Source: an uncultured Bacteroidota bacterium (GTDB lineage Bacteria > Bacteroidota > Bacteroidia > JABEUT01). From it: a DNA stretch of 36,127 bases. The DNA lies in contig CAIWVW010000041.1 of the NCBI GenBank assembly GCA_903916255.1, positions 1 to 36,127 on the forward strand. Direction: 5' to 3'. The notes under the pieces are model-generated. The model was given only the letters and a program-made list of their open reading frames with translations. It did not search any database and was not told the DNA's origin. The position numbers and the translations under genes were made by a program. Every line of letters begins with the position of its first letter. Position 1 is the first letter of the stretch. Positions 77 through 34,150 of this stretch are shown in pieces.

Positions 77-2938
77 TTAATTTGTTTTCACCACTTTTTT
101 CTGGCTAACCAAATTGCCGTTGTTATCTAATATGCGTATTAAATAAATTCCGTTTGGTTGGTCAGATATGTTAATAGTGGATTGTGGCCCGTGAATGCTG
201 GATTCAGTGTAAACTTTTTGTCCAAGCATATTATAAATCTCTACAGTATTACTTTCAACTTTCAACTTTTCACTTTCAACTGTAATTGTAAACTGTCCCG
301 ATGTTGGGTTTGGGTAGATGGTGATGTTATCCAATCCGGCGCAGCAGCCGCTATTGTTTTTATCATCCTTTTCTTTAACCGTTGGCAAATTACATACTAA
401 AGAAGTAATGTAAACAATACTGCAATGGTTTTTATCGGTTACCGTAATGGTATATGTATTTACAGTCAGGTTAGTCAATGTAGCCTTGGTTCCACCTCCC
501 GGCGACCATGCATAGGTGTAAGGGGCAACGCCTCCTTTCACTCCAAGGGTAGCCGTTATATAATTATCATTGCAACTTGAACCTACAATACTATCGCGCA
601 AATCGCCAGGCTGGGTAATTGTCAATGGACAAGCTGAACTGGAGCAACCGTTGGCATCGGTAACTGTTACCGAGTAGATACCTGCACTAAGTCCGGTAGC
701 CGCTGCATTAGTTTGCCCGTTGGTCCAGAGGTAGGTGTATGGTGCCGTACCCAGCTTCACTCCTACTGTTGCGCTTCCGGTTGCAGAACCATTGCACAGC
801 ACATTCACCTTTGAAGACGATACAATGGTGTCGTGTATGGCAACCGGCTGGGTTATGGTTAAGCCCACCGTTGCCGAACAACTGTTTTTATCTTTCACGG
901 TAACGGTATAGCTTCCGGCAGTAAGCTTTGTGCAGCTTGCAGTAGTGCTTAATGCGCCTGTCCATGTGTATGTATAAGGAGTGGTTCCACCGGTAGCCGT
1001 AACAGATGCGCTTCCTTTGCCGCTATGGCAGAATGCTTCGGTTACCGGGCCCGCTAAACTAACAGATAAAACTGCAGGCTGTGTAATAGTAGCCATAGGA
1101 GCCGCATTGGTAGCGCTGCATCCGTTTTTGTCGGTTACCGTAACTGTATATGTTCCGGCTGAAAGCCCGGTAGCAGTTGCCAGGGTGCTTCCGCTGCTCC
1201 AGGAATAACTGTAAGGATATGTTCCCCCTGAGGCGGTGGCTGTGGCTTTGCCGCCATTGCCGCCGTTGCATCCCACTTCAGATACAGAAGAAATACCGGA
1301 ATGAACTCCCGTAGGTTGTGTAATGCTTACGCTTGTGCTGGCCGAACTTCCGCATGAATCATGTACGGTTACCGTATAACTTCCCGCGCTTAAAGTAGCC
1401 GGAGTGGATTGTGCAGTAGCTATTACCGCATGTGCCGCATTGGTCCATGAATAGGTAAATGGCGATGTGCCTCCGGCAGGTGTTGCTGCCGCCTTTCCGT
1501 TAGCCAAACCATTGCAGGTTGCATAATTTACAACACCTGCATGCACAGTAAGCGCAGTAGGTTGCGTGATGGTTGCAGTTGCCGTAACACTGCACGAATT
1601 TGCATCCTGCACAGTTACCGTATAAGTTCCCGCGCTAAGTCCCGTGGCGGTTTCATTGGTTTGCGCATTGTTCCACAAATAAGAATATGGCGGCGTACCC
1701 AACGCAGGGCTTGCAGTTGCACTGCCATTGCTGCCTCCGCGGCAACTTACACCGGTAGTTTCATTGGCAACAGCCTCGAGCGTGCAATACGCAAGATTAT
1801 AATCGAATACTATGCCGTAATTATTTTGTCCTCCGGCATACGTTGTGCCATACAGGTTGTTCGAGGTAAGCAGCAGTTGTTCATAATAAGGGCTGTATCC
1901 ATCCCCGGCCCCAAATTGGAAATCGTGAAGCTTGTTAAATGAAGTACCGCTTGTGCTTACCGAAAAAAGAACACCTTCGCCATCGGCGCCTCCGCCGTTT
2001 GTTACACCATACATGGTGCTGCCGGAAATTACCAATTGGCCCAAGGGATATGAACCGTTGGGGTAGCCGTCAAAATTATAAAGGTCGGTGAAAGAACTTC
2101 CGTTGGTATTCATTGAAAAGATAACACCTTCGCCGGAAGTGCCGCCATTAGCGGTTATTCCCATTAAAACACCTCCGTTATCAGTTAACGAACCTATCGG
2201 ATAAGAGCCATCGGTGGTGCTTCCGGTAAAATCATGAAGGTCGGTAAAACCACTGCCATCATTATTAATTGAAAAAACCATGCCATTGTTATTTGCGCCG
2301 CCGTATTCTGTCATTCCATACAGAACGCTGCCTATAAGGGTTACAGACCCATATGGTAATGCGCCATCGTTTGTTGCCCCGGTAAACTGATGGAGGTCGG
2401 AAAACCCGCTGCCATTTATATTCATCGAAAAAACAATACCGTAATCGGGCGAACCGCCATAGGTTGTCATTCCATACATGGCGCTTCCCGAAATAACCAA
2501 TGTTCCACCGGTAGGGTATCTGCCATCAGAGGCTGCCAGCGAGAAATCATGTATATCGGCAAATGAGCTGCCATCCGTATTTACGGAAAAAATGATGCCC
2601 TCATTATAAAGCCCGCCACCGTGTGCCATGCCATATAATACGCCACCCGAAAGGGTTAATGAACCAATAGGCCCGTCGCCATCAGTGGTTGTGTTTGTAA
2701 AATTATGGATAACCGAATATCCGCTGCCATCCATATTAGATGAATAAATTACGCCAAATCCGGCTGTTCCGCCATCATTGGTCATTCCATATAGTTTGGT
2801 TCCGTCGGTTATTACCGAACCATAAGGATTGGCGCCATCCGTGCCGCTGCCGAAATCATGGATATCTGAAAATTGGGCGTTAACAGTAGTTATTGCTAAT
2901 AACGAAAGGCTAAAAGCAAATAGGTTGAGTTTTTTCAT
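77..2938 (-). CDS. GloVer/SprB-repeat T9SS secreted surface protein
   Basis: The 953-residue product starts with a signal peptide (about residues 1-21, ending VNA-Q). Residues 22 to about 385 hold about seven roughly 50-residue GloVer-type repeats (pattern D-H-F ... G-x-L-x-L-S-G-x-x-L-Y-G-M-T-x-x-G-G ... G-x-I-F-S), expected to form a beta-propeller. Residues about 390-870 hold SprB repeats (G-T-x-P-Y-x-Y-x-W ... L-S-A-G-T-Y-T-V-T-V-x-D). The last ~75 residues are a type A sorting domain (IYPNPTSGQFTI ... YNMLGQKVY ... GIYLIRI ... KKVVK). It is likely exported by the Sec and T9SS routes and displayed on or released from the surface as an adhesin. Ligand unknown. The loop ESEKLKVES in the sorting domain is encoded by a heptamer tract. 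Confidence 0.93.
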   Translation of the reverse strand: MKKLNLFAFSLSLLAITTVNAQFSDIHDFGSGTDGANPYGSVITDGTKLYGMTNDGGTAGFGVIYSSNMDGSGYSVIHNFTNTTTDGDGPIGSLTLSGGVLYGMAHGGGLYNEGIIFSVNTDGSSFADIHDFSLAASDGRYPTGGTLVISGSAMYGMTTYGGSPDYGIVFSMNINGSGFSDLHQFTGATNDGALPYGSVTLIGSVLYGMTEYGGANNNGMVFSINNDGSGFTDLHDFTGSTTDGSYPIGSLTDNGGVLMGITANGGTSGEGVIFSMNTNGSSFTDLYNFDGYPNGSYPLGQLVISGSTMYGVTNGGGADGEGVLFSVSTSGTSFNKLHDFQFGAGDGYSPYYEQLLLTSNNLYGTTYAGGQNNYGIVFDYNLAYCTLEAVANETTGVSCRGGSNGSATASPALGTPPYSYLWNNAQTNETATGLSAGTYTVTVQDANSCSVTATATITQPTALTVHAGVVNYATCNGLANGKAAATPAGGTSPFTYSWTNAAHAVIATAQSTPATLSAGSYTVTVHDSCGSSASTSVSITQPTGVHSGISSVSEVGCNGGNGGKATATASGGTYPYSYSWSSGSTLATATGLSAGTYTVTVTDKNGCSATNAAPMATITQPAVLSVSLAGPVTEAFCHSGKGSASVTATGGTTPYTYTWTGALSTTASCTKLTAGSYTVTVKDKNSCSATVGLTITQPVAIHDTIVSSSKVNVLCNGSATGSATVGVKLGTAPYTYLWTNGQTNAAATGLSAGIYSVTVTDANGCSSSACPLTITQPGDLRDSIVGSSCNDNYITATLGVKGGVAPYTYAWSPGGGTKATLTNLTVNTYTITVTDKNHCSIVYITSLVCNLPTVKEKDDKNNSGCCAGLDNITIYPNPTSGQFTITVESEKLKVESNTVEIYNMLGQKVYTESSIHGPQSTINISDQPNGIYLIRILDNNGNLVSQKKVVKTN
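251..285 (-). repeat. Heptamer tract inside sorting-domain codons
   Basis: Five consecutive 7-bp units of the type ACTTTCA on the plus strand. They encode the ESEKLKVES loop of the first gene's sorting domain. Seven bases times three gives a seven-residue period, so the tract can expand by three units without breaking the frame. Confidence 0.7.
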
Positions 2939-7743: not shown

Positions 7744-7944
7744 ATGAGTAAAATGGCAAACAGAAAAAAATCGGCAAAAAGCGGGTTCAAAAAATCGGCA
7801 AAAATTGGATTCAAAAAATCGGCCTTTAAAGAATCTTCCAACATTTTGAGCGTTATCTATAGCTTTGAAGACAATGATGCAGAAAGATTTATCAAATCTT
7901 CCGAACAAATTGCCGCGTCCCTTAGGGTAAAAAGCGTTTCCTGA
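7744..7944 (+). CDS. Small Lys-rich repeat protein
   Basis: A 66-residue protein. Its N-terminal third is a threefold eight-residue repeat of KKSAKxGF type (24-bp period in the DNA), strongly basic. The rest is an amphipathic acidic/neutral helix-like segment (FEDNDAERFIKSSEQIAASLRV). An internal ATG at 7753 (MANRKK) is an alternative start. I do not recognise the family. The basic repeats resemble nucleic-acid-binding tails. Its position behind the zeta-like kinase makes it the only nearby candidate for a partner or antitoxin, but its own promoter and lack of known antitoxin motifs argue caution. Confidence 0.6.
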   Translation: MSKMANRKKSAKSGFKKSAKIGFKKSAFKESSNILSVIYSFEDNDAERFIKSSEQIAASLRVKSVS

Positions 7945-10355: not shown

Positions 10356-11318
10356 TTACTTCTGAATTACCAATTTCCCTTCTCCAATAAGTTCACCGCT
10401 GTTTGCTATAACACGGTAAAGGTAAATACCATCGGGCTGGGCAGATAAATCAAGGGAATAGTGGTTAGTGGGTGGAAGATAGTTGGTGGAATACACATTT
10501 TCACCAAGAATATTATATACCTCGACTGACCACTTGCCACTGACAACTGACGACCGCATAGTAAACACACCCGCAGACGGACTGGGGTAAACGGAAATAG
10601 TAGTTTGCGGTTTTCCTATGGCATGAATAGCACTCTCCGGGCAAGTGTGAAAAATAGTGCATCCACCTGCGGGAAATACAATAGTGGAGTCCTCAAAACA
10701 ATTTATATTACATCCTCCCTCAAACGGCGGATAAATATCTTCCATAAGGCCAAGCCAACTTCCAATACCTTCTGTAATGGAATCGAACGCCCAATAAATT
10801 GATACACTGTCTTGTGAAATAATAAACTGCTTTCTATATGTGCTACCCACTAAAATTGAATCTATAGAACAAACAAAAAAATTATTAGAAATATTACTGT
10901 AAGACATAGGTAAAGTATCTCCAACTTTCAAATTAAAATCATATAGCAATGTATCCTTTCCATAATTAGGTTTAAAAGAAGCATATACTTTCCTGGATAA
11001 CGTATCGTTTCGTAATAAACAAAAAAGATAATTATAGCATTGGTAAACTGTACTTCCCAAGTCATCATATTCAATGCCTCCGGAAATATTGAGTTTACTA
11101 TATGTTTTACCATTAACCACTGTATCGCCCCGCACATAATAATCAAATTCGTTATGCCCTACATCAATAGGATTGCAGGTCATACAAAGCCAATAACTTG
11201 TTTCTCCCCAAGCCGCATTACTATCCGGAAACGGATGATACACGTTAAACTGCGCCTTGCAAAAAGTGAATAGCGAAGAGCTGAAAACTACAAGTAAAAC
11301 AAGTACATTTTTTTTCAT
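10356..11318 (-). CDS. T9SS type A sorting-domain protein
   Basis: From ATG 11318 the product has 320 residues: signal peptide (MKKNVLVLLVVFSSSLFTFCKA-Q), a central ~215-residue Cys-containing domain I do not recognise (WLCMTCNPIDVGHNEFDYYVRGDTVVNGKTY and so on, with paired Cys), and a type A sorting domain (VYPSPSAGVFTM ... YNILGENVYS ... GIYLYRVIANSGELIGEGKLVIQK). Other in-frame ATGs at 11324 and 11354 are possible. The DNA of the last ~75 bp is almost the same as in the gene at 5021, while the rest is unrelated. A heptamer tract at 10527-10554 encodes the SVVSGKWSV loop. Its promoter carries a triple 21-bp-spaced repeat shared with the LytTR gene, so it may be a LytTR target. Confidence 0.9.
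   Translation of the reverse strand: MKKNVLVLLVVFSSSLFTFCKAQFNVYHPFPDSNAAWGETSYWLCMTCNPIDVGHNEFDYYVRGDTVVNGKTYSKLNISGGIEYDDLGSTVYQCYNYLFCLLRNDTLSRKVYASFKPNYGKDTLLYDFNLKVGDTLPMSYSNISNNFFVCSIDSILVGSTYRKQFIISQDSVSIYWAFDSITEGIGSWLGLMEDIYPPFEGGCNINCFEDSTIVFPAGGCTIFHTCPESAIHAIGKPQTTISVYPSPSAGVFTMRSSVVSGKWSVEVYNILGENVYSTNYLPPTNHYSLDLSAQPDGIYLYRVIANSGELIGEGKLVIQK
10527..10554 (-). repeat. Heptamer tract inside sorting domain
   Basis: Four 7-bp units (TGACCAC, TTGCCAC, TGACAAC, TGACGAC) on the plus strand, encoding the VVSGKWSV loop. It is the same heptamer type as at 5189, 15762 and 34332. Confidence 0.7.
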
Positions 11319-11367
11319 ACGCATGAAATTACAACAGACTAAGCATTTCGTCAAACCATTTGCTAAT

Positions 11368-11375
11368 CAAAGGTA
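11368..11375 (-). promoter_or_regulatory. -7 box of the T9SS gene at 10356
   Basis: CAAAGGTA on the plus strand gives TACCTTTG on the minus strand. A TTTTG lies about 15 bp upstream of it. The triple TACCAT array begins exactly 36 bp upstream. Confidence 0.65.
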
Positions 11376-11411
11376 CTATAAAAACCAGTTCAAAATTTCA
11401 ATACTTATTGA

Positions 11412-11459
11412 ATGGTAGGTTTTATTGAGTAGATGGTATGTTTTTGGCGGTGAATGGTA
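11412..11459 (-). promoter_or_regulatory. Triple 21-bp-spaced operator (copy 1)
   Basis: ATGGTA at 11412, 11433 and 11454 on the plus strand, i.e. TACCATTCA, TACCATCTA, TACCATTCA read on the minus strand with a strict 21-bp period. LytTR regulators bind 9-bp direct repeats spaced by about 12 bp (21-bp period), so this fits a LytTR operator. An equivalent array sits before the window's LytTR gene at the same distance from its -7 box. The array also lies 47 bp before the -7 box of the divergent gene at 11529 and could act on both. Confidence 0.75.
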
Positions 11460-25969: not shown

Positions 25970-28900
25970 CTATTTCTGCAAAATCATTCTCTTGGTATCT
26001 ATTACTTTACCGTTTACAACCAGGCTGTATGAATACACTCCATTAGCAAGGTTTTCAGGATTTAGGTTAATTGTTCCATTGCCTGTTTGGCTAAGTTGCA
26101 CTTCTTTCAACTGGTTGCCATAATTATCATAGAAAATAACCGTGGCGCCCAGTGTTCCTTCAGGCAGATAGTAATTAATTTTGGTACTTGTGCTGAAAGG
26201 ATTGGGAATGTTTTGATACAACAAAGGTGCATCGGCATTCGACAAGCTAACCTCCTGCGTATTGCTGATATTTCCATTTATTCCGCCCTGAATATTCGGG
26301 TTTGAACTTTGCGAACAGATTTGGTTGAGGCAGGTTTGCATGCTTTGCAATGCAGTTTTCAAACTATCGATAACTTGTTGTTGCTTTTCTATTTTCACAG
26401 TTTCCGTGTTATGGTTTTCAGTTACCGCTGAATCCACATCCTTAATAGCATTAATTGCAGTATATAAAACAGCTTGTTCATAAATACTTAAAACAGTTGA
26501 AGTATCTCCATCTTTATCACTTTTCTTGATTACTGATTTCTTAACTGCGTAAGGCGCAACGCTTGCCAGGTTTTGAGCTTTTAATCCGATGTAGCTATTT
26601 CGGGTATCAAGCCCACCTACTCCATTGTATTTATAGTTAATAGGCTTTAAACCCCGAATCACTTTTATTCCATCATTAAAAGATGTTATATCCTTCTTTA
26701 GTGTTGAATCGGAATAGATGTAACTTCCACCGGTTTCGATGCCGCCATTAACATACATTAAAGCAGGCAATGAACTAAAAGTTGGAAATGTTCCTAGATT
26801 AAATCCAACACTGACTATTCCGCCGTAATGAGGTACAAATATTGCGTATTGGGAATCTGTATCAATATCATCTGCTTCAAACCAACCTGCAACGTTATAA
26901 AATTCTGAACCCGAAGGAGGGGGCAGGTAGCTTTTTAACCCAATCACTGGATAAGGGGATGTTTGAGTGCCAGCAGACAAATCATCGTTTTCAACATAAA
27001 TGCCTATGCTAGTCTGAGACGCGGTTGAAGTTGCACCGGAATTTTGCAATACATCCAGTTTTGCCTGAGGTGTATACCCGCATGGGTTTCCAATTACAAC
27101 ATCTTCAACCCCTAACTGTTGGCTCCCGTTTCCGGCAAAATAGAAGTTATATGGCGAACCTGCATTTGAAAGAAGGTTATACCCGCCATTATCAGTCATG
27201 GGTGTCAGACCTCCTGATGAACAATACCCTAGCCCATTGTTTGCAGTAAATGATGGAGCTACATAAATCACATTTCCATATCCATCTACACTTAATACCC
27301 CTTGTGGAGCAGGGTTTACACCCATTATGTTAGTAAAATTTGAATTATTCAAGGCAACTGGGGTAGATTTAGAATTTAAATCATGGAATCGCAACCCGGT
27401 CGTTCCAGTAGCTGGATTCACCGCAACATAATAATAATTTTGTGCAAGTGGTTGAGCATTCCAATTATTTGGCCAAGGTGAATTTTCGGTGGCTATTTCA
27501 AGATTCGTTGTCCCCATTCCAGATGGAAGAGCGCCTGAAAGTCCAATTGCAGCGGTTACATTATTATTTCCCAGTTCCATTTCATTGCTTGAATACACTT
27601 GGGAATATGGGCCAATGGCTGAAGCATTACTTATTATATTTGCAGAAGTAAGAGAACTTGCTTTAGTTGCCTGTATACCTAAAAACATATCATCAAAATC
27701 TTTTACAACATTGGAAGTTCCGCCTGCACCATTTCCCACGGCAACATTACCGCCCCAGCAATAGGTTGAAGCTGGCACGCCTGCTTGAATAAAATTAGTT
27801 AGTGTCCCCGAACCGATGGCTGTGTTACTGTCTCCAGTTGTAAGAGCAGACAAGGCTGCATTTCCAAACCCACTGTTAGATTTACCCGCTGTGTACGCCC
27901 GCAGAACTTTATAACCAACTGCGGTATTATTTGCACCTGTTGCTGTTGTGCCACCCTCCATTGCCTGATACCCAACAGCTACATTATCATTGCCTTCACT
28001 ATATTCCATAGCAGCACTGCCAACAGCAACATCAGCCACCACTGTTGTATAAGAGAGGGCTGCACTACCAACTGCCACATTATCATTGCCGGAGGTATTA
28101 CTTTTTAACGCACTTCCACCTACGGAAGTGTTGCGCACACCTGTATTGTCATTCTGAGATGCTTGACTACCTATAGCAGTACAACCATCAACTGCATTAG
28201 GATTAAAATTTTGAAGAGCACTCCACCCCACCGCAGTGCAATTCATTCCCTCAGAAACCACGCTGGGATTAAGTTTTTGCAAGGTATAGGCACCTATAGC
28301 AACATTTTGGCTTCCAAAGGCATTTGGTGGCCCACCTGCAAAACCTTGGTCTGATGCAAGTGCAGCATAACCCATAGCAGTATTTTCATACCCTTGCGTC
28401 ATATTATACATTGTTTCATATCCGACCCCACAATTACGATATCCTGAAGTATTTTTATAAAGTGTATATCCACCTACAGCCACATTATCGCTCGCCGTAT
28501 TGTAGAATAAAGTGGAAGGGCCAATTGCAACGCTTGCATTGCCTGTAGTATTTGTAACTAAAGAATTTAAGCCAACTGCTACATTACTATCGCCATAATT
28601 ATTTCTCAAACTATTATAACCAATACCGGTATTATCATACCCGCAGCCTGAAGAACTATTTCCATTTAAACTGTACGCTCCAACGCCCGTGTTTTGATAG
28701 TTCACAGCCCCCCCGTATGCATTATAATATAACGCCGCTATCCCAATACCTGTATTGCCCGCGGCATTACTACCTGTTCCATCTGTATAATACAAAGCCC
28801 GATATCCATCAGCGGTATTACCCCAAGCCTGAGTAAGACTATATAAAGCCTGCGAACCTGTGGCGGTATTCTCAAAACCATCGATTCCCATAGCAGGCCA

Positions 28901-29170
28901 ATTATAGAGATTATACATTGTTTGAAACCCTATCGCTGTATTATCGTTTCCGTTTACTGCCGTATTGCCAGTAGGTCCAAATGTATTTACACCATATCCT
29001 GTGTTATTTGTTCCACCTGGACAAGAAGTTATATCACCGATTGAATAAGTTGAACAGGAGGAAAGACCATCTTGAGTAGCTCCTCCATACGTAGTATTAG
29101 TCTGCCCAAACCCCTTCCCTGCCAACAATAGCAAGCAGGTTCCGATTGTTAGAAATTTTAGATTTTTCAT
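25970..29170 (-). CDS. YadA-head/S74-chaperone/T9SS surface protein
   Basis: A 1066-residue protein in three parts after a signal peptide (1-23, ending GFG-Q). Residues about 30-510 are some twenty YadA-head-like repeats (N-T-A-[VI]-G-x-x-A-L-x-x-x-T-x-G-x-[DN]-N). A linker region of about 300 residues follows. At about 820-915 is a tail-fibre S74 intramolecular-chaperone domain (SDSTLKKDI ... GLKPINYKYN ... YIGLKAQNLASVAPYAV). Then come a coiled coil (about 900-955) and a type A sorting domain (LYQNIPNPFSTSTKINYYLPEG ... GVYSYSLVVNGKVIDTKRMILQK). It is likely a trimeric adhesin. S74 self-cleavage would separate the sorting domain from the head, so either cleavage is absent or the order of events is special. 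Confidence 0.92.
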   Translation of the reverse strand: MKNLKFLTIGTCLLLLAGKGFGQTNTTYGGATQDGLSSCSTYSIGDITSCPGGTNNTGYGVNTFGPTGNTAVNGNDNTAIGFQTMYNLYNWPAMGIDGFENTATGSQALYSLTQAWGNTADGYRALYYTDGTGSNAAGNTGIGIAALYYNAYGGAVNYQNTGVGAYSLNGNSSSGCGYDNTGIGYNSLRNNYGDSNVAVGLNSLVTNTTGNASVAIGPSTLFYNTASDNVAVGGYTLYKNTSGYRNCGVGYETMYNMTQGYENTAMGYAALASDQGFAGGPPNAFGSQNVAIGAYTLQKLNPSVVSEGMNCTAVGWSALQNFNPNAVDGCTAIGSQASQNDNTGVRNTSVGGSALKSNTSGNDNVAVGSAALSYTTVVADVAVGSAAMEYSEGNDNVAVGYQAMEGGTTATGANNTAVGYKVLRAYTAGKSNSGFGNAALSALTTGDSNTAIGSGTLTNFIQAGVPASTYCWGGNVAVGNGAGGTSNVVKDFDDMFLGIQATKASSLTSANIISNASAIGPYSQVYSSNEMELGNNNVTAAIGLSGALPSGMGTTNLEIATENSPWPNNWNAQPLAQNYYYVAVNPATGTTGLRFHDLNSKSTPVALNNSNFTNIMGVNPAPQGVLSVDGYGNVIYVAPSFTANNGLGYCSSGGLTPMTDNGGYNLLSNAGSPYNFYFAGNGSQQLGVEDVVIGNPCGYTPQAKLDVLQNSGATSTASQTSIGIYVENDDLSAGTQTSPYPVIGLKSYLPPPSGSEFYNVAGWFEADDIDTDSQYAIFVPHYGGIVSVGFNLGTFPTFSSLPALMYVNGGIETGGSYIYSDSTLKKDITSFNDGIKVIRGLKPINYKYNGVGGLDTRNSYIGLKAQNLASVAPYAVKKSVIKKSDKDGDTSTVLSIYEQAVLYTAINAIKDVDSAVTENHNTETVKIEKQQQVIDSLKTALQSMQTCLNQICSQSSNPNIQGGINGNISNTQEVSLSNADAPLLYQNIPNPFSTSTKINYYLPEGTLGATVIFYDNYGNQLKEVQLSQTGNGTINLNPENLANGVYSYSLVVNGKVIDTKRMILQK

Positions 29171-29322
29171 AGTCTTTAAAATTTAGTGTGTTAATAATTA
29201 GTACACCAAGTTTACTATGAAATACACCGATTTTTTTTGAAGCTACCTTGTGTTGCAGTTTGCCTGCATCAAGTTGCACTTTTCCTGCTGCGAAATGAAT
29301 TTTAGAATACTACCCGCTCCTA

Positions 29323-29766
29323 TTATCTTTTATTCGGATAATGGAAAAAAGCGAAAAAAGCTTTGCGGTAAGTTCTGTTGAGGGTAATGTAAATAGGCTT
29401 GCCATTGTCCGTTACATTGTTAAGGTAAATGGCATCCTCGTCAAGGTAATGAATGGCAACAGGCGAAACCAAATCCTGCTTATTCACCTGCAGCAAAAAC
29501 CCGGTTAGTTTAATTAACTCATCTAATCCGTGTCCGCGGATTATATACATAATATTGCCCTTCAGGTAAAGCAATTTATCGGCATGGCCGCCCTTAATGG
29601 CCCGCACCAATAAAATATCGGGCAATAAAATTTTTACTTTTTTCCTTCCACCCGAAAGGTTGAAAAGATAATAATCCTTCAAATGTTCATTAGCGGTAAT
29701 AACCGGCCCTGCATAGGGTAGGTTATTTTTCTCATTCAGCGAAATTACATGCAGTGCTTCCTTCAT
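29323..29766 (-). CDS. LytTR-domain transcription regulator
   Basis: A 147-residue protein. Residues about 45-145 fit a LytTR DNA-binding domain: LLPDILLVRAI, LLYLKGNIMYIIRGHGLDELIKL, FLLQVNKQDLVSPVAIHYLDEDAIYLNN and GKPIYITLNRTYRKAFF (the usual N-R/S-x-x-V-N and final basic strand pattern). The N-terminal ~45 residues are not a receiver domain, so it is a stand-alone LytTR protein, possibly a one-component regulator. Its promoter (-7 at 29847) carries three TACCAT repeats with a 21-bp period, the expected geometry for its own binding site, indicating autoregulation. Confidence 0.8.
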   Translation of the reverse strand: MKEALHVISLNEKNNLPYAGPVITANEHLKDYYLFNLSGGRKKVKILLPDILLVRAIKGGHADKLLYLKGNIMYIIRGHGLDELIKLTGFLLQVNKQDLVSPVAIHYLDEDAIYLNNVTDNGKPIYITLNRTYRKAFFAFFHYPNKR

Positions 29767-29846: not shown

Positions 29847-29854
29847 CAAAGATA
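29847..29854 (-). promoter_or_regulatory. -7 box of the LytTR gene
   Basis: CAAAGATA on the plus strand, TATCTTTG on the minus strand, about 80 bp before the ATG. A TTG lies 16 bp upstream. Confidence 0.65.
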
Positions 29855-29890
29855 TGTGCAATGCAGATTACAATTTCTGCCATTTATTGG

Positions 29891-29938
29891 ATGGTATGAT
29901 TTATTGAGTAAATGGTATAATTTTGGCGGTAGATGGTA
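29891..29938 (-). promoter_or_regulatory. Triple 21-bp-spaced operator (copy 2)
   Basis: ATGGTA at 29891, 29912 and 29933 on the plus strand; TACCATCTA, TACCATTTA, TACCATCCA on the minus strand, 21-bp period. It ends exactly 36 bp before the -7 box, as in copy 1 at 11412. The linkers between units are also conserved (CCGCCAAAA and CTCAATAAA), whereas the 36 bp down to the -7 box differ. Confidence 0.78.

Positions 29939-34049: not shown

Positions 34050-34145
<96 letters not shown>

Positions 34146-34150
<5 letters not shown>

Follow-up and report, generated by a model that had tools for sequence, protein, structure and literature searches.

A TACCAT direct-repeat array upstream of a divergent LytTR gene looks like one of many operator copies preceding secreted-protein genes in a Bacteroidota genus

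Three TACCAT boxes lie upstream of a gene for a small putative LytTR-domain protein (29323..29766, minus strand) in a 36,127-nucleotide stretch of DNA from an uncultured Bacteroidota bacterium (contig CAIWVW010000041.1 of assembly GCA_903916255.1; the whole stretch is referred to here as the window). This arrangement raises the question of whether the protein controls its own promoter through the boxes, as the initial annotation had proposed. We find instead that the array looks like one of many copies standing before many secreted-protein genes in the genus, and not like a private self-control switch.

On the minus strand the boxes read TACCATCCA (29888-29896), TACCATTTA (29909-29917) and TACCATCTA (29930-29938), and the steps between them are exactly 21 bp, as had been described. 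The array occupies 29888..29938; its start had been placed 3 bp short, at 29891, with just the TACCAT of the last box covered. The -7 box of the LytTR gene promoter, TATCTTTG, is found at 29847..29854 (minus strand). Its TTTG begins 46 bp downstream of where the last box starts, and 33 bases, not the 36 bp given earlier, separate the end of that box from the -7 box. The proposed LytTR operator geometry was borne out, with 9-bp boxes, 12-bp spacers and a position just upstream of the promoter. By definition, such operators consist of 9-11 bp direct repeats with 11-13 bp between them (PMC4847170, accessible part), and published LytTR boxes close to ours, ACCACTTAT-12-ACCGCTTAT and similar, have the same spacing and also lie just upstream of a promoter (PMC6193735, accessible part).

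The window holds a second TACCAT array of identical geometry, missing from the initial annotation, at 11409..11459 (minus strand). Behind it are the -7 box TACCTTTG (11368..11375, minus strand) and a type IX secretion system (T9SS) cargo gene with a Por_Secre_tail domain (10356..11354, minus strand). Exact TACCAT box pairs at 21 bp number four in the window and exact triples two, and 300 dinucleotide shuffles produced neither a pair nor a triple. In a self-similarity scan over periods 15-30, simple 7-bp repeats aside, the top 21-bp stretches were the two TACCAT arrays and a different, TGCAAC array (29253). Since no shuffle gives a pair or triple and the period scan singles out the array, a chance origin was ruled out.

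The genome scan for 21-bp box triples that had been suggested as a check was run on the window's own genome (G000; 3.74 Mb, 97% complete). Exact matches numbered 3, while a further 4 had 1-2 mismatches and 7 had 3, and the array is hence not unique to the LytTR gene. With the pattern reversed as a control, 10 matches came up at three or fewer mismatches, and the 3-mismatch class by itself is weak proof; a two-box pattern had 34 matches against 18 for its control. We also built a sequence-only profile of 66 positions, R1, from 14 aligned arrays, and applied it to the 11 genomes of the genus set (G000-G010), omitting fragments that adjoin a stronger match. At E<1e-3 it matched 23 places in G000 (14 of which had built the model), 11 in G002, 7 in G007, 4 in G003 and 1 in G004; the two window arrays were matched at 29875-29938 (54 bits) and 11396-11459 (59.9 bits). 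At this threshold no match was obtained in G001, G005, G006, G008, G009 or G010. G006 is 99% complete, and its lack of arrays is therefore real at the sensitivity of R1; incomplete genomes of the genus may hide further arrays. Among 18 weak matches inspected in the remaining genomes and left uncounted, many are chance-like and several resemble true two-box arrays (G008:C37, G009:C8, G001:C4), these weaker arrays having a -7 box behind them.

We examined 43 of the 46 matches at E<1e-3, leaving out G000:C113:14595 and two of G003 (C93, C43), and observed a fixed distance to the promoter. The TTTG that ends the -7 box follows the start of the last box by 46 bp in 19 of the 43 arrays and by 47 bp in 11, so that 30 have the promoter-adjacent position of LytTR operators; it lies exactly one unit further in 4, and 9 fit neither position. 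The background is a mean of 0.6 arrays per offset. Among 17 G000 arrays the mean identity is 70% over the 60-bp array, 30% over 63 bp upstream and 33% over 24 bp downstream, and since the arrays are so much more alike than their upstream flanks, they are not simply duplicated promoters. Conservation extends from the boxes (74%) to the pair of inner spacers (63%), which are A-rich (ATAAGTGAAACC, CCGCCAAAAACC, CTCAATAAAACC). The operator would thus comprise three 21-bp units that stand upstream of a Bacteroidota -7 promoter and at a constant distance from it, each unit being made up of TACCRTYYA and a conserved spacer rich in A.

The genes behind the arrays are largely T9SS cargo. Scoring the first co-oriented gene with a profile built from 30 T9SS tails, we detected a tail behind 28 of the 43 arrays (16/22 in G000, 9/11 in G002, 3/7 in G007, 0/2 in G003 and 0/1 in G004). 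When first genes were compared with the other genes of the same loci, tails were present on 16/19 versus 12/79 in G000 (Fisher p 2e-8) and on 9/9 versus 3/40 in G002 (p 1e-7), a comparison that drops arrays with no complete downstream gene of at least 150 aa (3/22 in G000 and 2/11 in G002). G000 has a large T9SS cargo set, with at least 150 Por_Secre_tail domains in 3.7 Mb, and most of its cargo genes have no such array. Among the non-cargo cases are the window LytTR gene, an outer-membrane-receptor-like gene (judged by eye) and a site between genes that four species share. It is likely, then, that the roughly two dozen operator copies of G000 serve mostly cargo genes, and that the LytTR-domain-only gene is a further target of this shared operator.

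The protein encoded by that gene has 147 residues and no receiver domain. Its assignment to LytTR holds through its family and fails for the protein itself, which has no match in Pfam (PF04397 included) or NCBIfam: 10 of 16 family members match Pfam LytTR (PF04397) at E<=0.1, the best at 6.9e-6, and hhalign places the family profile against the canonical LytTR domains of G000 at a probability of 95.5% (E 1.4e-8, 91 columns). Relatives occur in 9 of the 10 genus mates, mostly as receiver (REC) proteins with a weak LytTR match, and none was found in 49 genomes outside the genus. A related-locus search of genome contigs with the window protein gave no match, searching PDB sequences with the family profile (hmmsearch) gave a single chance-like match (E 0.45), and a single-sequence structure model (no alignment) reached pLDDT 38. 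In AgrA, some of the FhRhHRS motif touches DNA (PMC4227749, accessible part); at its place the window protein reads FLLQVNK, and most of the conserved motif is lost. The most fitting description of the protein is that of a divergent member of the LytTR group without a receiver.

What is conserved with this gene is the TGCAAC array, which lies on its other side and had likewise not been annotated. This second, different 21-bp array (TTCATTTCGCAGCAGGAAAAG / TGCAACTTGATGCAGGCAAAC / TGCAACACAAGGTAGCTTCAA; 29237..29299, minus strand) stands between the LytTR gene and a 1066-aa surface-protein gene (25970..29170, minus strand), and an orthologous array is found in G003. The surface protein has phage tail-spike-like repeats, a Peptidase_S74 chaperone domain and a weak T9SS tail; its gene is kept as the partner of the LytTR gene in G003, and the two partner proteins are homologous (36% identity, repetitive). 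The gap between the genes is 152 bp in the window and about 135 bp in G003. In both, the best period is 21 bp, with a score reached by 0 of 300 shuffles, and the boxes read TGCAACTTGATGCAGGCAAAC-TGCAACACAAGG in the window and TGCAACTCACTGCAGGTAAAA-TGCGACTTACTGCAAC in G003. Across the 11 genomes the TGCAAC pattern, built from these same two sequences, matches exactly at G000:C41:29252-29278 and G003:C39:9920-9946 only, with one further match at 3 mismatches. The last unit starts 43 bp before a putative -7-like box in each case (TAAACTTG, 29207..29214, minus strand, one mismatch to TAnnTTTG, in the window; TAGTATTG in G003), and the geometry is for this reason that of the TACCAT arrays. It is thus the TGCAAC array downstream of the LytTR gene, and not the TACCAT array, that is kept between the window and G003 orthologues. 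We take it as the candidate operator of the window LytTR protein.

Other divergent family members also precede surface-type genes, with SprB or NHL repeats behind C18, C116 and G007 C12, or tandem small genes behind G007 C27, G007 C128 and G008 C1. The gaps of G007 C27 and C128 are near-identical to each other and have a significant 21-bp period with TGCATCTTRTTACA boxes. The G008 C1 gap contains three TAGTAC words at 21 bp with a score that is not significant, and no significant 21-bp period was found in the gaps of C18, C116 and G007 C12. The tandem small proteins behind three of the divergent LytTR genes are about 119-147 aa long (L067 149-1348, L068 1408-2164, L055 3-1352); two were checked, neither had a Pfam match, and one had a weak PHROG tail-protein match.

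If the window protein does not read the TACCAT arrays, the most likely binder would be a canonical LytS/LytTR-type response regulator common to the whole set. A pattern scan of named genomes, with a pattern that fixed much of the spacer and so makes spacer conservation in distant genomes just partly independent, found the same two-unit array in the genus and in distant Bacteroidota. One of the latter is G061, the genome of L234, where the array stands before the gene of a 1011-aa protein containing a PF06580 His_kinase domain, and a REC-LytTR regulator gene comes next. In the distant records L226, L228 and L234 a -7 region lies about 47 bp after the last-box start, as judged by eye. Beside the arrays of G060 and G062 no kinase-LytTR pair was demonstrable; the G060 gene is cut off by the contig end, and no kinase model matches the fragment that remains. 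The G061 regulator is 39% identical to the C52 regulator of G000, and for both BtsR is the top NCBIfam model, under its cut-off; closer matches to the G061 regulator are found in G008 and G009, genomes that lack strong arrays. A phylogenetic profile based on a 71-protein tree and on comparison with the G060-G062 regulators left the C52 type and the C132 type as candidates with no decision between them. We consider the C52 type the best candidate for the regulator of the TACCAT arrays.

Three other explanations of the TACCAT array were weighed. The initial annotation had the 147-aa protein binding the array before its own gene and regulating itself, perhaps with control of the other arrays as well. 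The LytTR-type geometry and box speak for this, as does the divergent LytTR domain encoded downstream, and it has been published that LytTR regulatory systems control themselves via direct repeats placed ahead of the promoter (PMC6193735, accessible part). However, the array recurs at 22 other places in G000, and the DNA-contact motif is mostly lost, FLLQVNK standing where LytTR proteins have FhRhHRS (PMC4227749, accessible part). G002 (98% complete) has 11 arrays, yet the nearest relative of the window protein there is a 28%-identical REC-type protein, and the window protein as TACCAT binder is therefore unsupported. The G003 orthologue (58% identity) has no TACCAT array upstream even with filters off, the G003 arrays existing elsewhere, and a self-control site is for that reason unsupported too. 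Among 75 LytTR-gene loci of the genus, some of them cut by contig ends, an array lies upstream at one, that of the window; a weak match in L258 is behind its LytTR gene, not before it. Autoregulation was hence rejected as the principal explanation, and we judge it unlikely.

Other regulator families, too, use direct repeats spaced by two helical turns. A regulator of such a family could thus bind the 21-bp repeats, the LytTR gene then being an ordinary member of its regulon, and the conserved spacer, which goes beyond the needs of a bare pair of 9-bp boxes, would fit this. The box is nevertheless near published LytTR boxes, and the LytS kinase-LytTR operon of the distant G061 is preceded by this unit, equally far from the promoter; we therefore think this quite improbable. 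That the arrays stem from a repeat element that spreads, or from gene duplication, with no regulatory meaning, seems to us very improbable indeed. The flanks of C79a/C79b and of C66/C132/C149 are homologous, some copies thus being plain duplicates, and a subgroup (C41a, C41b, C77, C118) has both inner spacers in common. Against this, the upstream flanks average 30% identity and the -7 box stands at a constant distance; the majority of arrays face a gene start close by, and four species retain an orthologous site. Plain promoter duplication was also discarded as a general origin, few array pairs having homologous flanks.

The explanation we favour, and regard as probable, is that the TACCAT array is a copy of a shared activator operator bound by a canonical LytTR regulator, that the LytTR gene is one of its targets, and that the product of this gene acts on the private TGCAAC array. 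This would amount to a two-step cascade, in which the shared regulator acts on the TACCAT arrays and the divergent protein, through the TGCAAC array before 25970-29170, acts on the neighbouring gene. Several observations weigh against it. No TACCAT array was found upstream of a canonical LytTR gene at the 75 loci of the genus, and regulators of the C132 and C52 types are present also in genomes with no strong arrays. The first gene behind 15 of the 43 arrays has no recognised T9SS tail, and the -7 boxes behind the TGCAAC arrays are one base off the consensus. A significant 21-bp period was seen in just 4 of 16 divergent-family gaps, two of them from the near-identical G007 paralogues, versus 1 of 27 canonical control gaps. 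More tentatively, the cascade might be one instance of a genus-wide wiring code. The TACCAT operator of dozens of T9SS cargo genes would answer to one canonical regulator, and divergent LytTR paralogues, some of them receiver-less, would each read a private 21-bp array before one surface-protein gene, with box and DNA-contact motif changing together.

Some further features were noted in passing. The intergenic stretch with an array (L129 ~1610-1935, plus strand) lies between a GH92-like gene, recognised by eye, and panD (NAD kinase in G003), with orthologous stretches in L148, L161 and L165. No gene is apparent behind the array; there are about 250 nt with blocks conserved in four species (GGTGAGACT..., AGTCATGACATA..., GTTGCGGC), for which no convincing match was obtained in Rfam. 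The stretch is a candidate for an unannotated structured RNA. In the window, tandem repeats with period 24 and period 7/14 are found at 7765-7823 and 34051-34146, respectively.

Control of T9SS is known mainly for the machinery, through PorXY-SigP in Porphyromonas gingivalis. With a recognisable operator before cargo genes, the secreted and surface proteins of other Bacteroidota would have a regulon that can be tested. Should every divergent LytTR protein indeed read its own array, these proteins would form a natural series for the study of sequence choice by a beta-strand DNA-binding domain. Literature searches combining LytTR with type IX secretion, with Bacteroidetes promoters or binding sites, or with Bacteroidota direct repeats found no such description in the accessible parts of the sources, subscription titles being mostly outside their scope. 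For T9SS with promoter motifs or direct repeats there was none among the matches listed, as far as the accessible texts go.

The arrangement resembles several known systems. In the LytTR Regulatory Systems HdrRM and BrsRM of Streptococcus mutans, a soluble LytTR regulator activates transcription through 9-bp boxes of the ACCnCTTAn type, which have a 12-bp spacer and lie immediately before the promoter (PMC6193735, accessible part). There, two units are present and the regulator is paired with a membrane inhibitor gene, whereas here the array has three units and is common to many cargo genes. Membership in this group was rejected: no membrane inhibitor gene adjoins, the next gene encoding the 1066-aa S74-domain protein and the upstream gene belonging to the Ham1 family. 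Nor are autoregulatory repeats conserved upstream of the regulator, as the G003 orthologue is not preceded by a TACCAT array.

The BtsR box of Escherichia coli is ACC[G/A]CT[C/T]A, and the targets of BtsR and YpdB are a few transporter genes. The LytS/LytTR pairs BtsS/BtsR and YpdA/YpdB also use direct repeats, GGCATTTCAT for YpdB (PMC4847170, accessible part); here the genes concerned are dozens of T9SS cargo genes and the promoter is of the Bacteroidota -7 type. AgrA of Staphylococcus aureus places its LytTR domain on direct repeats that precede the P2 and P3 promoters (PMC4227749, accessible part), but unlike AgrA the window protein has no receiver domain and has lost most of FhRhHRS. Finally, PorX/PorY-SigP of Porphyromonas gingivalis controls T9SS machinery genes through an extracytoplasmic function (ECF) sigma factor (PMC7712824, accessible part), whereas in the present genus it is the cargo genes that are concerned, apparently under a LytTR-type operator.
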